Below are positions 722 to 5,066 of a DNA stretch of 34,451 nucleotides, piece by piece; positions within the stretch are counted from its first letter, which is position 1, and every line of letters starts with the position of its first letter. Origin of the DNA: an uncultured Collinsella sp. (GTDB lineage: Bacteria; Actinomycetota; Coriobacteriia; Coriobacteriales; Coriobacteriaceae); the NCBI GenBank assembly GCA_949294785.1, contig CASFIQ010000068.1:1-34451 (forward strand), read 5' to 3'. The position numbers and the translations under genes were made by a program. The notes under the pieces were generated by a model. The model did not search any database. It saw nothing but the letters and a program-made list of their open reading frames with translations, and was not told the origin of the DNA.

Positions 722-771
722 GCGCTATCGTAGAGGAGCAGCAAACCGGTATGTCGATGGAAGGGGTCTGC

Positions 772-1509
772 ATGCTCAAGATCGTTCGCGCTAGGGATTA
801 TAAGGACATGAGCCGCAAAGCGGCCAACATCATCTCTGCGCAGGTGATTCTCAAACCCGATTGCGTGCTGGGCCTCGCCACCGGCTCCACGCCGATCGGC
901 ACCTATCAGCAGCTTGCCGAGTGGAACAAGAAGGGCGATTGCGATTTCTCGCAGGTGTCGACCTATAACCTGGACGAGTATCGCGGCCTCAGCCACGATG
1001 ACCCGCAGAGCTACCATTACTTCATGAAGGTGAACTTCTTCGATCACGTGAACATCGATATCGCCAACACCCATGTGCCGGATGGCGCCAACCCGGATGC
1101 CGATGCCGCCTGTGCGGAGTACGACCGCATCGTAGCCGAGGCGGGCTATCCCGACCTCCAGCTTCTGGGCATCGGCAACAACGGGCATATCGGCTTCAAC
1201 GAGCCCGATGACCACTGCTTCTCCAAGGGCACGCACTGCGTCGACCTGACCGAGTCCACCATCCAGGCCAACAGCCGCCTCTTCGACCGCATCGAGGATG
1301 TTCCGCGCCAGGCCTATACCATGGGCGTCCAGACGATCATGCATGCACGCACCATCCTCGTGGTCGCCAACGGTCCGGCGAAGGCGCAGGCGGTGCACGA
1401 TATGTGCTTCGGCCCCGTCACGCCCAGCTGCCCGGCGTCGATCCTGCAGCTGCATCCCAACGTGACCGTTGTCGCCGACGAGGAAGCGCTGGCGCTCTGC
1501 GAGCTGTAA
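772..1509 (+). CDS. nagB: Glucosamine-6-phosphate deaminase NagB
   Basis: Converts glucosamine-6-phosphate to fructose-6-phosphate and ammonia, the entry of amino sugars into glycolysis. The product is 245 aa. Motifs seen: phosphate-binding LGLATGSTP (33-41), YNLDEY (65-70) with the catalytic Asp68, and GIGNNGHIGFNEP (133-145) with His139 and Glu144. The residue matching E. coli Asp141 is Asn137, a change common in Gram-positive NagB proteins. ATG 772 has GGAAGGGG about 6 nt upstream and gives the usual family N-terminus; an in-frame ATG at 751 with a more distant GAGGAG is the alternative. It sits 140 bp behind the EIIA gene, has its own likely promoter, and ends before a strong terminator. 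Confidence 0.95.
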   Translation: MLKIVRARDYKDMSRKAANIISAQVILKPDCVLGLATGSTPIGTYQQLAEWNKKGDCDFSQVSTYNLDEYRGLSHDDPQSYHYFMKVNFFDHVNIDIANTHVPDGANPDADAACAEYDRIVAEAGYPDLQLLGIGNNGHIGFNEPDDHCFSKGTHCVDLTESTIQANSRLFDRIEDVPRQAYTMGVQTIMHARTILVVANGPAKAQAVHDMCFGPVTPSCPASILQLHPNVTVVADEEALALCEL

Positions 1510-1575
1510 CGCTTGTTCGGCCTTCTATCGGTTGCGCTGTGAGGTGCTCCCGATGAATCGGGCATAGACCCGACG

Positions 1576-1610
1576 CGCCCGTCCCGAACGTATCGGGGCG
1601 GGCGTTTTTT
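1576..1610 (+). terminator. Rho-independent terminator after nagB
   Basis: A 12-bp GC-rich stem (1576-1587 with 1593-1604, one G-T pair) closes a 5-nt loop ACGTA. It is followed at once by six T residues (1605-1610). It lies 66 bp past the nagB stop and should end the EIIA/nagB transcription. Confidence 0.9.
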
Positions 1611-1641: not shown

Positions 1642-1659
1642 ATCTGACATCCGTCTGAA
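1642..1659 (+). promoter_or_regulatory. Heptamer pair, ATCTGAC-type, 11-bp period
   Basis: ATCTGAC (1642-1648) and GTCTGAA (1653-1659) begin exactly 11 bp apart, on the same face of the helix. The same heptamer recurs with 11- and 10-bp steps at 1866-1904, just before the STAND/BTAD regulator gene. Direct heptamer repeats with an 11-bp period are the known site type of SARP/BTAD activators. That this protein binds here is inference. Confidence 0.4.
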
Positions 1660-1734
1660 ATCTCGTGCTGAAACGGTCCTGACGGACCCTTAGCACAATC
1701 GGACATTCAGCGGTGATGTTACGCTACCTTAAGA

Positions 1735-1767
1735 ACCGTTGACGGTCGAATTGATACCGTAGACGGT
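1735..1767. promoter_or_regulatory. Twin 12-bp palindromes 21 bp apart
   Basis: ACCGTTGACGGT (1735-1746) and ACCGTAGACGGT (1756-1767) are both perfect ACCGT-N2-ACGGT palindromes. Their starts lie 21 bp apart, two helical turns. This looks like a pair of dimer sites for one regulator. They lie midway in the 380-bp gene-free region between the nagB terminator and the STAND/BTAD gene. Confidence 0.5.
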
Positions 1768-1865
1768 GTCTTACCTGCTAGAATTCTGGACAAACACCCG
1801 GGCGTGGCTTTAAACTTGCCGCATCGTGACCGCCATCTAACTGCAGAAACGTCCTCCAGCGGTAC

Positions 1866-1904
1866 ATCTGACCAAAATCCGAATCAATCTGACCGAAATC
1901 TGAC
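1866..1904 (+). promoter_or_regulatory. Phased heptamer array before the STAND/BTAD gene
   Basis: Four heptamers follow in the same direction: ATCTGAC (1866-1872), ATCCGAA (1877-1883), ATCTGAC (1887-1893) and ATCTGAC (1898-1904). Steps are 11, 10 and 11 bp, so all face one side of the DNA. The last one could overlap a -35 (CTGACG, 1900-1905), with a weak -10 near 1925 (TATCTG). The array ends 87 bp before the start codon. The arrangement matches known SARP/BTAD activator sites; autoregulation is inferred. Confidence 0.5.
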
Positions 1905-1991
1905 GACTCGCCCGGGAAACGGATTATCTGCCTTGGAAAAGGCTTCTGTTCCCGTACAGTGGGGGACCCGACGCGAACAGGAGGCCAGCCT

Positions 1992-4900
1992 ATGAGCACC
2001 AAGAGCCTGCAAGCCGTCTCACGCGAGTTCGATGGGACGCCGTTCAACGAGGTCCCGCCCACGTATGAGGGCATTCTGGAGATGGCGCCCGGCCCCCGGC
2101 CGCGCGCCCCGCGCCTGCCCATGGGGTCGAGCTTCACCGTCCGGCGCACCGAGCTGGTGCGCAGCATCGTGAAGCACGAGGGGGAGTCGGGTATCTGCGT
2201 CATCACCGCGCCCGACGGTTTCGGTAAGACGGCGCTGTGCCTCCAATACGCCGAGGAGGTGCGAAGCGATCCCGGGCGCGGGGACGCCTGCCTGATCGAC
2301 GCGGCGGCGATGTCGTGCGTTGACGTGATCGCAGCGATCAACGATGCCGCCTGCAAGATGCGCGCCGCGCTGCGTCCCGCCGTGATCGTCGACGGCATAC
2401 CGGCATGGTCCGCTCAGCAGGGGGCGCTCGTGGCAGACCGCATCCGCGAGCTTCGAGACGAAGGGGTCACCTTCATCGTTTCCTGTGTCCCGGGGCGCCG
2501 CGAGTTCGTGAGCGCGCTCGGCGGCGCGGCGCGCATCGGCGCGCAGGCGCTGCGCGTCCGCCCGCGCGAGTACTCGGATTGGGCTCGGACCTTCTCGCTC
2601 TCGAGCACGCTCGACGTCTATGCGCTCACGCAGGGCATCCCGTCGCTCGTGGCGTCGCTTTCCGCGGCGGTCCGCCGCAACGACGAGGTGCGACCGCTGC
2701 TCGATGTCTACATCGATGAGCTGTACCGGGCGGTTCTCGCAGAGCTCGCTGCCGAGGACGAGCACATGGCGCTCATCGCGAGCATGATGCTGCTTTTGGG
2801 GACGGGTCGCGTGGAGGAGATCGAGGGAGGGGGCATGCGCGTGTCGAACGAGGTCCTCGCCCGCCTCATGCACGATTACCCGGTCTTCGGCTACGACGCC
2901 TCGACGCGCGCCTTCTCATGCCTGGGTGCAGAAGATGGACCGCTTCGCGAGATTCGCGCCCAGATTGCCCGGGAGCGTCCGCGCCTCGTGACGAGGGCGT
3001 GCCGCATGCTGCTTCGCTACGATCGCGTCGACGAGGCCGAGGCCTTGGCGCGCGCTTTCATGGAGCGCAACCAGATTGCGGCCGTTATCGCGCAGTTCCC
3101 CCTGAAGTTCGCGCTCGCCGGGCATGCCGCCCTTGTGGCTGAGTGCATGACGCCTGAGGATGCGGCGGGCTCCGCCTCGGGTCCGGGTGGGATGCTTGCG
3201 CTCTACGCCGCGGCGCTCACCCTGGGCGATTTCAAGCTGGCCCGCGCCATGGCGGGCATGCTGCGGCTGCAGGCACAGGCGGTTGCGGACGAGATATCGG
3301 CATCAGATTGGGATTGCGCGCTGGCGCTCGCGGGGCTGTGGCCGACGTGCTCCGGTATCGAGCTTCCGCGCATCGCCTACCCGGGGCGCGATATCAACGC
3401 GCTGCCTGCCGCAGCGGATATCAGGGGCTTCTCGAACAGCATGGGGCGGATTCTCGGCACCGCGCGGCGCCGGACGGGCCGCCGCCGTCCTCGGAGGGAT
3501 GCGGGCCGGTCGGTGGCGCTCGACGTGCCGGAGCTCCTTCGCGTCTGCGGCGAGATCATCGAGGAGATCGCGGATGGCGATATGAAGGACGCGCCCGACG
3601 ACCGCGATGCGCAGCTCGAGGCCTGGGCGCGCGTCCTGCGCGAGCGCCGTCTCGTCCCGATCCTATCCCTGGTGCGAACCTCGATCTCGATGAGGAGGCT
3701 GTTCTCGGGCGCGCCGGTGACCGACGAGCGCGTGTTCAGCGATGCGGGAACCCTTGCCATACGCGTTGCCGACCAGCCCTTCCAGCTATTCTGCATGCTT
3801 CTGGAAGGCTGGCAGAGCCTGGCTTTGGGCCAGATGGTCAATGCGCAGTTCCGCGGCCAGCAGGTGCTTCGACTTATGGGCGGCAGCGCCCACGCCCTCA
3901 AGGGATGGGCGCTCGTGTTGGAGCGCACCGCCCACCTACGGAGCTCTTCGCGGCTGGCAATTCGCGAGGAGGCCGAGCTGCTCGACCTCACCCAGAGGAG
4001 CTGCACCCCGGCGCAGGCCTGGGTCACGGCGTTCGGGCTTGCCGCCGCGCGGTTCGATGGGGAGCTGTCCGCTTGGTACTCCTTGCACAAGAAGGAGCTG
4101 CTCGACCCCTCGATCAGGCTTCCGGCGCGCCTCGCCATGCAGGCGATGGGGGAGCGCGCCGATGCCATCCGCCGCCTGCTTCCCGAGCAGCGCCTCCATG
4201 CGTACCTGCTGGGCGGCCCTTCCCGCACGCCGCGCGTCGAGACGGTGCTGAGCGCGGCGGACGTGCTGGAGCATGCCGATCTGGGGCAGCTGGGCATCGG
4301 CCTTTTCGGCGGCTTCAAGGTCGAGCGCAACAACCATACGATCACCGATGCGGTATGGAGGCGTCGCAAGGCGAGCACGCTCGCGGCGCGTCTCACGCTC
4401 GCGATGGGGTCGTTTGTGAGCCGGCGCGTCCTTATGGAGGAGCTCTGGCCCGATAGCGACTACAAGCATGCGCGCGACAACCTGTACGCCACGCTGACGG
4501 TGTTGCGCCGCGCGATGAGGCAGGGCGCGGCCGAAGGTCCGCAGTACCTGCTGTCGCACGGCGACGGCGTGGCGATCAACCGGGAATACGTGGTATCCGA
4601 TGTCATGCAGTTCGAGCTGCTCGCTCGCCAGGTGCTCGTCAAGCGCACCGGCGTCGCCGCACCTCAGGTCATCGAGAGCTGCCTTAAGATCGAGCAGATC
4701 TACTCGGGAGACCTCTACGTGCCCGATCAGGGCTGCCCCGATTACTTCATCAGGATGCGGGGCGTGTTCGCGGCGAAGTTCGTCGATTGCATGCTGCGCG
4801 GGGTCGAGGCGGCCATCGACGAGGAGGATCTCTCGTCTGCGCTGTGGATGGTCGACGCGGCGCTTCGCCGCGCCCCCACGCGCGAGGACGTCATCCGCGC

Positions 4901-5066
4901 GGCGATGCGCGTCTACGATCGGGGAGGTCGCAGAAACGAGGTGATCGAGCTCTACCACGGGCATCTTCATTACCTGAAGACGCAGGTCAAAGGCATTCCC
5001 GAACCGGAGACGCGGCAGCTGTACGAGGAACTCATCGGGCTTCAGCGCCGGCGGGGGCTCCTCTAA
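1992..5066 (+). CDS. Large STAND-ATPase transcription regulator with C-terminal wHTH and BTAD domain
   Basis: A 1024-aa signal-integrating regulator. An N-terminal STAND-type P-loop module shows Walker A APDGFGKT (residues 73-80) and a Walker B-like AVIVDG (130-135). A long helical-repeat middle follows (about 250-750, TPR/MalT-like). Near the C-terminus an OmpR/SARP-like winged helix (about 766-856: LFGGFKVERN, then ALPDSD-like ELWPDSDYKHARDNLY) leads into a bacterial transcriptional activation domain (about 866-1016, ending in the GIPEPETRQLYEEL helix). AfsR-type proteins have the reverse order, with the SARP part first. ATG 1992 has AGGAGG 7 nt upstream; an in-frame GTG at 1959 has no such site. 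The gene stands alone, so its targets are unknown. Phased repeats upstream suggest it controls itself. Confidence 0.85.
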   Translation: MSTKSLQAVSREFDGTPFNEVPPTYEGILEMAPGPRPRAPRLPMGSSFTVRRTELVRSIVKHEGESGICVITAPDGFGKTALCLQYAEEVRSDPGRGDACLIDAAAMSCVDVIAAINDAACKMRAALRPAVIVDGIPAWSAQQGALVADRIRELRDEGVTFIVSCVPGRREFVSALGGAARIGAQALRVRPREYSDWARTFSLSSTLDVYALTQGIPSLVASLSAAVRRNDEVRPLLDVYIDELYRAVLAELAAEDEHMALIASMMLLLGTGRVEEIEGGGMRVSNEVLARLMHDYPVFGYDASTRAFSCLGAEDGPLREIRAQIARERPRLVTRACRMLLRYDRVDEAEALARAFMERNQIAAVIAQFPLKFALAGHAALVAECMTPEDAAGSASGPGGMLALYAAALTLGDFKLARAMAGMLRLQAQAVADEISASDWDCALALAGLWPTCSGIELPRIAYPGRDINALPAAADIRGFSNSMGRILGTARRRTGRRRPRRDAGRSVALDVPELLRVCGEIIEEIADGDMKDAPDDRDAQLEAWARVLRERRLVPILSLVRTSISMRRLFSGAPVTDERVFSDAGTLAIRVADQPFQLFCMLLEGWQSLALGQMVNAQFRGQQVLRLMGGSAHALKGWALVLERTAHLRSSSRLAIREEAELLDLTQRSCTPAQAWVTAFGLAAARFDGELSAWYSLHKKELLDPSIRLPARLAMQAMGERADAIRRLLPEQRLHAYLLGGPSRTPRVETVLSAADVLEHADLGQLGIGLFGGFKVERNNHTITDAVWRRRKASTLAARLTLAMGSFVSRRVLMEELWPDSDYKHARDNLYATLTVLRRAMRQGAAEGPQYLLSHGDGVAINREYVVSDVMQFELLARQVLVKRTGVAAPQVIESCLKIEQIYSGDLYVPDQGCPDYFIRMRGVFAAKFVDCMLRGVEAAIDEEDLSSALWMVDAALRRAPTREDVIRAAMRVYDRGGRRNEVIELYHGHLHYLKTQVKGIPEPETRQLYEELIGLQRRRGLL

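Follow-up and report, generated by a model that had tools for sequence, protein, structure and literature searches.

Introduction

The described systems that come closest to the locus presented here are found among the SARP activators and the STAND proteins. AfsR, the large SARP of Streptomyces coelicolor, combines an OmpR-type HTH and a BTAD fold with a STAND-type ATPase module in the same protein, the SARP being located at the N-terminus and followed by the NOD and the TPR. MalT, the STAND activator of Escherichia coli, has its STAND ATPase first and its DNA-binding domain last; the latter is, as is generally known, a LuxR-type HTH that serves the maltose regulon. AfsR and the other SARP activators act at direct repeats with a period of 11 or 22 bp, the last of which is located 8 bp from the -10 box (PMC10936776). 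PimR, the SARP-LAL of Streptomyces natalensis, whose SARP domain is N-terminal (PMC3367932), has a single target gene, pimM, and uses heptamers with 4-nt spacers and a second operator of 10-bp units; its heptamer, GGCAAGA, is close to the GCAAGGT of some Collinsella relatives (PMC5930380).

The window, i.e. the whole stretch of 34,451 nucleotides of uncultured Collinsella sp. DNA that we have analysed, contains a gene (positions 1992-5066, plus strand, ATG at 1992) that encodes P0001, a protein of 1024 aa with a STAND and a SARP region, and that is preceded by arrays of heptamers. The likeness to AfsR and PimR lies in the domains and in the 11-bp direct repeats with 4-nt spacers; unlike the SARPs with antibiotic genes, and unlike PimR with its one target, P0001 has many predicted targets, which are DNA-uptake and recombination genes. 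P0001 would thus hold the same place as ComK, ComX (sigma-X) and Sxy/TfoX, i.e. the common control of the uptake genes, dprA, recA and ssb; to our knowledge, none of these three is a SARP or a STAND protein. They belong to protein families that are unrelated to P0001 (regulators reviewed in PMC8467076).

Competence control in Actinobacteria has been described as little known (PMC8467076; PMC12849477), and a 2026 study of Micrococcus luteus, a species in which transformation requires Flp/Tad pili (PMC4322843), states that the upstream signal and the regulators of competence remain to be identified (PMC12849477). The literature that we searched, mostly open-access, yielded no study of a competence regulator or of a BTAD/SARP protein in Collinsella, Coriobacteriia or Eggerthella, and a putative competence control circuit of the present type appears to be without precedent there for Coriobacteriia. 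Our analysis names a gene, gives an operator motif and lists targets in a family, and probably in an order, of gut bacteria whose competence was the subject of no paper that we found. If the proposal is true, SARPs, known as antibiotic activators, would also run DNA uptake; boosting the activity of one gene might open gut commensals that are hard to engineer to transformation in the laboratory, and there would be a testable point at which gene exchange in the gut is controlled.

The protein encoded next to the arrays

In the predicted structure of P0001 (mean pLDDT 82.9), a STAND NTPase fold at residues 43-355 is followed by a helical middle and by a C-terminal SARP region, i.e. an OmpR-type HTH and a BTAD domain, at residues 759-1021. 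The Pfam BTAD match reaches 34.2 bits, with a cut-off of 22.1. Matches of the P0001 sequence or profile to solved structures are weak (best AfsR, E 0.0045), and the domain assignment has been settled by fold comparison: residues 759-1021 of the model match AfsR (Z 19.1, 8k60) and EmbR (Z 18.4), and for residues 43-355 the matches are CED-4 (Z 16.9) and MalT (Z 12.6, 8bob). P0001 has the nucleotide-binding fold with a P-loop that is characteristic of STAND/NOD proteins, its P-loop-like GFGKT stretch being conserved, and it has the OmpR-type winged helix followed by BTAD that is characteristic of SARPs. An AfsR-type large SARP it is not, having the reverse order of AfsR and PimR, with the ATPase N-terminal and the SARP C-terminal as in MalT; the identity of its SARP domain with that of AfsR is 18%, and the arrays reach seven or more repeats, unlike those of AfsR.

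P0001 is the sole BTAD protein that we found in its own assembly, which is 86% complete and may therefore lack a second BTAD gene; in the family, one BTAD protein per genome was found in 19 of the 19 genomes tested. Nine further OmpR-type HTH proteins are encoded in the same genome, and the arrays could instead be bound by one of these, i.e. by another response regulator of the OmpR/PhoB type, with the BTAD gene being one more competence or stress target. Pho boxes are TGTCA repeats that are located before phosphate genes and are bound by PhoB; the GTCAGAT repeats described below, being 11-bp direct repeats that contain GTCA, resemble them in part, but the targets that we have identified are not phosphate genes. 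In addition, none of the genome-wide pattern matches forms a strong array beside any of the nine genes, whereas the BTAD gene retains its arrays in most orthologs. We consider binding by another such regulator improbable; two further observations that bear on it, one on each side, are given with the promoter geometry and with the arrays of the BTAD gene.

Heptamer arrays in the window

The preliminary description had reported six ATCTGAC-like heptamers in two clusters, with steps of 11, 11, 10 and 11 bp, and our inspection of the sequence agrees with these positions and steps: four heptamers are exact (1642, 1866, 1887 and 1898), and two carry two mismatches each (GTCTGAA at 1653 and ATCCGAA at 1877). 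The distal array (1642-1659, minus strand) consists of ATCTGAC at 1642-1648 and GTCTGAA at 1653-1659, which on the minus strand read TTCAGAC-N4-GTCAGAT, with a step of 11 bp. The proximal array (1866-1904, minus strand) consists of the heptamers at 1866, 1877, 1887 and 1898, with steps of 11, 10 and 11 bp, and on the minus strand reads as GTCAGAT.

The excess over shuffled sequence that the preliminary description had named as support is present: the intergenic region 1510-1991 contains four pairs at 10 or 11 bp with at most two mismatches in total per pair, and 2000 dinucleotide shuffles averaged 0.007 such pairs and never gave more than 1. When the motif is left free, the best motif again gives four pairs (mean 1.3, maximum 2, in 60 shuffles). 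Single ATCTGAC-like heptamers are not enriched across the whole window (52, with 80 expected); the signal in the window thus resides in the spacing.

Arrays across the genome and orientation of the putative operator

The assembly to which the window belongs (223 contigs, 1.97 Mb) was scanned for ATCTGAC-N4-ATCTGAC with at most two mismatches, which has returned 49 matches, compared with 0 for the reversed control pattern; the arrays of the window are thus part of a family that extends over the genome, although the weakest two-mismatch pairs may be due to chance. The matches group into about 20-25 arrays, mostly intergenic, of 2 to 5 repeats each. Where a step of 10 bp replaces the step of 11 bp, an ATTCGAA- or ATCCGAA-type repeat is often located beside it, as is also seen in the window.

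For about a dozen of the arrays, a gene that is oriented like GTCAGAT, and not like ATCTGAC, follows at a distance of 60-155 bp; read in this way, the motif is GTCAGAT with 4-bp spacers. The earlier reading of the heptamers as SARP-type operators has consequently been retained in one respect, that of 11-bp direct repeats of SARP-like form, and corrected in another, the orientation, which in the window is that of GTCAGAT on the minus strand. ATCTGAC as the orientation of an upstream activator site at every target has been rejected, the strand being reversed at the canonical targets.

Some arrays (L022, L026, L030, L036, L037 and L040) have no called gene in the canonical orientation; two of these (L022:7919-7958 and L026:2649-2677) share the bases that follow the array, GTCAGATgtggaaaac. 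At L030:3800-3960 and L040:4590-4700, the arrays are merged with a terminator-like hairpin, with a heptamer being located within the stem.

Genes located downstream of the arrays

In the window's own genome, the arrays precede recA, rpsF (30S S6) and the gene groups yraN-comM-dprA, comEA-comEC-holA and prmC-sua5; rpsF is presumably followed by ssb and rpsR, as in the usual gene order. The genes were called by a simple codon-usage script, so that their start sites are approximate. Further genes linked to arrays encode nuclease-like proteins and a SpaA-repeat adhesin, and some are small genes of a toxin-antitoxin-like kind. The motif has therefore served, as the preliminary description had expected, for finding a candidate regulon: comEA/comEC, dprA, recA and, by the usual gene order, ssb share one operator. 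By our own rough arithmetic, in which about 20 of 1000 transcription units are assumed to carry arrays, the probability that at least four of six core competence units would carry them by chance is approximately 2 in a million.

Apart from those of the BTAD gene, the arrays with the best conservation are located before genes for DNA uptake and recombination, which makes it probable that the regulator turns on the natural uptake of foreign DNA. The reading that we regard as likely is that the STAND-SARP protein activates a natural-competence regulon through the arrays and also controls its own gene, the heptamers of the window being the operators at which the protein encoded next to them binds. 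The STAND ATPase would presumably respond to a signal; the active regulator would bind 11-bp direct repeats, which are GTCAGAT in its own genome, and would recruit RNA polymerase to promoters in which 8 bp separate the last repeat from the -10 box. The proposed main targets are comEA-comEC (DNA uptake), yraN-comM-dprA, recA, rpsF-ssb-rpsR, prmC-sua5 and several nuclease-like genes. Of this proposal, the arrays and their conservation, the 8-bp distance at recA and rpsF-ssb, the genes that follow the arrays and the predicted protein fold are computed results; binding by P0001, activation, competence as the outcome, the sensed signal and the sign of the autoregulation are inferred.

Arrays of the strict pattern occur in relatives before prmC (G005), before a relative of P0006 (G005), before nuclease-like proteins akin to those of the own genome (G005, G003, G008 and G016) and before a gene that reads as pth (G016 and G023); pth, a topoisomerase gene and prmC are linked to arrays in some relatives. 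The nuclease-like and other recurrent neighbours of the arrays (L021:2061-3053, L027:3675-4730, L035:5424-6479, L039:2191-3354, L022:6717-7667 and L036:3-689 in the own genome; L283, L285, L286, L287 and L289 in relatives) form two families of 230-390 aa, one of which is weakly similar to the nuclease-like Pfam models MTES_1575 and DUF559.

An array is also located near the Tad cluster of the own genome (L030), before the Tad/Flp pilus genes cpaB-cpaE-cpaF; this is the array at L030 that is merged with the hairpin, the -10 box is not clear there, and the operon is at most a possible canonical target. Other neighbours include a large surface protein in which thioester, SpaA and T-Q ester domains are combined, located 64 bp downstream of an array (L029:409-4998), a GHKL histidine kinase with a LytTR response regulator near an array (L040:1124-2852), in a layout that recalls peptide quorum-sensing systems, and, in one relative (L293, G012), a gene that resembles a REP-associated tyrosine transposase, about 230 bp after an array.

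Conservation and covariation in related genomes

Across the family, P0001 has a single ortholog per genome, with 38-50% identity in most; the named orthologs are from Collinsella, Enorma and other Coriobacteriaceae. A search of the named genomes with P0001 alone returned no matches, and a search of the same genomes with the ortholog alignment returned 53 loci. Diverged 11-bp repeats are located upstream of the P0001 orthologs, recA, yraN and comEA in these relatives; before the BTAD gene, the array chain score is above shuffles in 19 of 24 orthologs, so that the conservation for which the preliminary description had proposed a check is present.

The chain score is based on three-repeat chains and one matrix, which was set by hand after some of the sequences had been viewed, the shuffles and the opposite strand being a partial control for this. 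In dereplicated genomes, the scores for the own strand, the opposite strand and the shuffles are 11.7, 0.5 and 2.5 at recA, 10.9, 4.5 and 4.9 at yraN, and 12.7, 1.9 and 1.6 at comEA; at the BTAD gene, the inverted orientation scores 14.5, the opposite strand 5.2 and the shuffles 4.9. The 95th percentile of all 110-bp stretches at comparable loci is exceeded in 79% of the genomes for recA and in 94% for comEA. Plain lag-11 autocorrelation over whole upstream regions is weak, owing to the 3-bp period of the coding sequence in them, and local and chain scores have been used in its place.

The heptamer varies between genera and is common to unlinked loci within a genome, e.g. GCAAGGT at recA, comEA and the BTAD gene in one relative (G016). 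Permutation of the genome labels gives z 3.0-5.2 for five of the six locus pairs and z 1.6 for comEA-BTAD; the test removes phylogenetic relatedness only in part, and the spacer bases covary too, more weakly. If one binder serves all these loci, such a joint drift of the heptamer at unlinked sites within a genome is to be expected.

It is these observations that weigh against the idea that the arrays are a dispersed intergenic repeat, without a regulatory role and close to competence genes by chance. About 20 arrays in one genome, some of them between convergent genes or merged with terminators, would suit such an element, but the 11-bp repeats at orthologous genes are strand-specific and diverged, across a family in which the regulator orthologs are 38-50% identical, and at recA and rpsF-ssb they keep a fixed distance to the -10 box; old orthologous copies of a mobile repeat would not be expected to change together. 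We strongly disfavour this idea.

Promoter geometry at the predicted targets

At recA, a heptamer followed by TANNNT after exactly 8 bp gives 18 matches in 24 genomes, with a mean of 1.0 and a maximum of 5 in shuffles; examples are GTCAGAC-ctcctttc-TAGAAT, GCAAGGT-tggcgcgg-TAGCAT and GTTGGAT-ccaggcga-TAGGAT. For recA and rpsF-ssb, the combined score of the heptamer, the upstream repeat and the -10 box is highest at 8 bp, and yraN has a slight, marginal peak; by the same score, the 8-bp peak is absent at comEA and at the remaining arrays of the own genome. Both features of SARP promoters, i.e. the repeats at 11 (or 22) bp and the distance of 8 bp between the last repeat and the -10 box, are present at recA and rpsF-ssb, where the geometry is conserved in Coriobacteriaceae; comEA and the BTAD gene have the repeats without the 8-bp distance. 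That recA and rpsF-ssb have exactly the distance of the published SARP rule argues against binding by another OmpR/PhoB-type regulator. By eye, the recA arrangement is also seen in other families of the order, as GTCAGTTttctGATAGATaccgGTCAAAAagcgGTCAGAT-tgcttcga-TAAAAT and as a run of about ten GCTGGAT-like units followed by -cgcgtcgt-TATACT.

Throughout the family, a second recA promoter appears to be located downstream of the array, with a LexA-type box (TTGACCGCGAACAGCTGTTCG type; GAACAGCTGTTC-like; L149-L178). With a SARP-type and a downstream LexA-type promoter, recA seems to be under dual control.

The LexA-type promoter also suits a broader regulon of DNA repair, stress or anti-phage defence, in which comEA-comEC, dprA and recA would be included as DNA handlers, as do the nuclease-like or toxin-antitoxin-like nature of several targets and the arrays at pth, the topoisomerase gene and prmC in some relatives. 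However, comEA-comEC and dprA are not known to have a core role other than in taking up DNA and processing it; competence regulons classically include recA and ssb, and no LexA-type box was noticed within the arrays. We rate the broader regulon as unlikely, though less so than binding by another OmpR/PhoB-type regulator, and retain the competence regulon.

Arrays and possible control elements of the BTAD gene

Both clusters before the BTAD gene are inverted relative to the gene, i.e. they point away from it, and they have no -10 box at a distance of 8 bp. This orientation, which differs from that of the recA arrays, is the point in favour of another OmpR/PhoB-type regulator that was announced above. 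The autoregulation suggested by the preliminary description accordingly stands as far as SARP-like arrays before the orthologs are concerned, and is not supported in its simple positive form, the arrays being inverted and lacking the -10 box at 8 bp; the sign of the putative autoregulation may be positive or negative.

In 14 of 24 BTAD-gene orthologs, a second cluster is located 228-248 bp from the first; in several of these 14, the second cluster on its own is not above shuffles. The regulator would bind the two inverted arrays, about 240 bp apart, flanking or preceding the promoter of its own gene, and autoregulation might proceed through a repressing DNA loop between the two clusters. The layout fits two operators that flank a promoter, as in repression by looping; activation from an upstream site might also occur. 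As for the extension of the proposal to the whole order Coriobacteriales, namely a single STAND-SARP switch that directly activates the promoters of uptake genes, dprA, recA and ssb, links these to a family of nuclease-like proteins induced in competence and controls itself through a conserved two-operator loop of ~240 bp, we put it forward tentatively and give it somewhat less than even weight.

Between the two arrays, the element CGTAGACGGT (1758-1767, plus strand; consensus CGTRRACGGT) was found by motif search, with a motif score of 186 compared with 170-179 in shuffled controls. Of 20 orthologs, roughly 13-15 have CGTRRACGGT between their inverted arrays, and in some orthologs it is followed by a hexamer like TAGAAT, which in the window (1779-1784, plus strand) is a possible -10 box of the BTAD gene. 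An alternative, weak promoter-like pair, TTGGAA-16-TACAGT (1933-1960, plus strand), scored under the threshold of the promoter scan. On the other side of the distal array, a computed intrinsic terminator (1575-1610, plus strand) separates the array from the upstream gene (751-1509, plus strand), which we take, from its sequence and from general knowledge, to be nagB, encoding glucosamine-6-phosphate deaminase; a similar gene 3' end is also found before several of the BTAD-gene orthologs.
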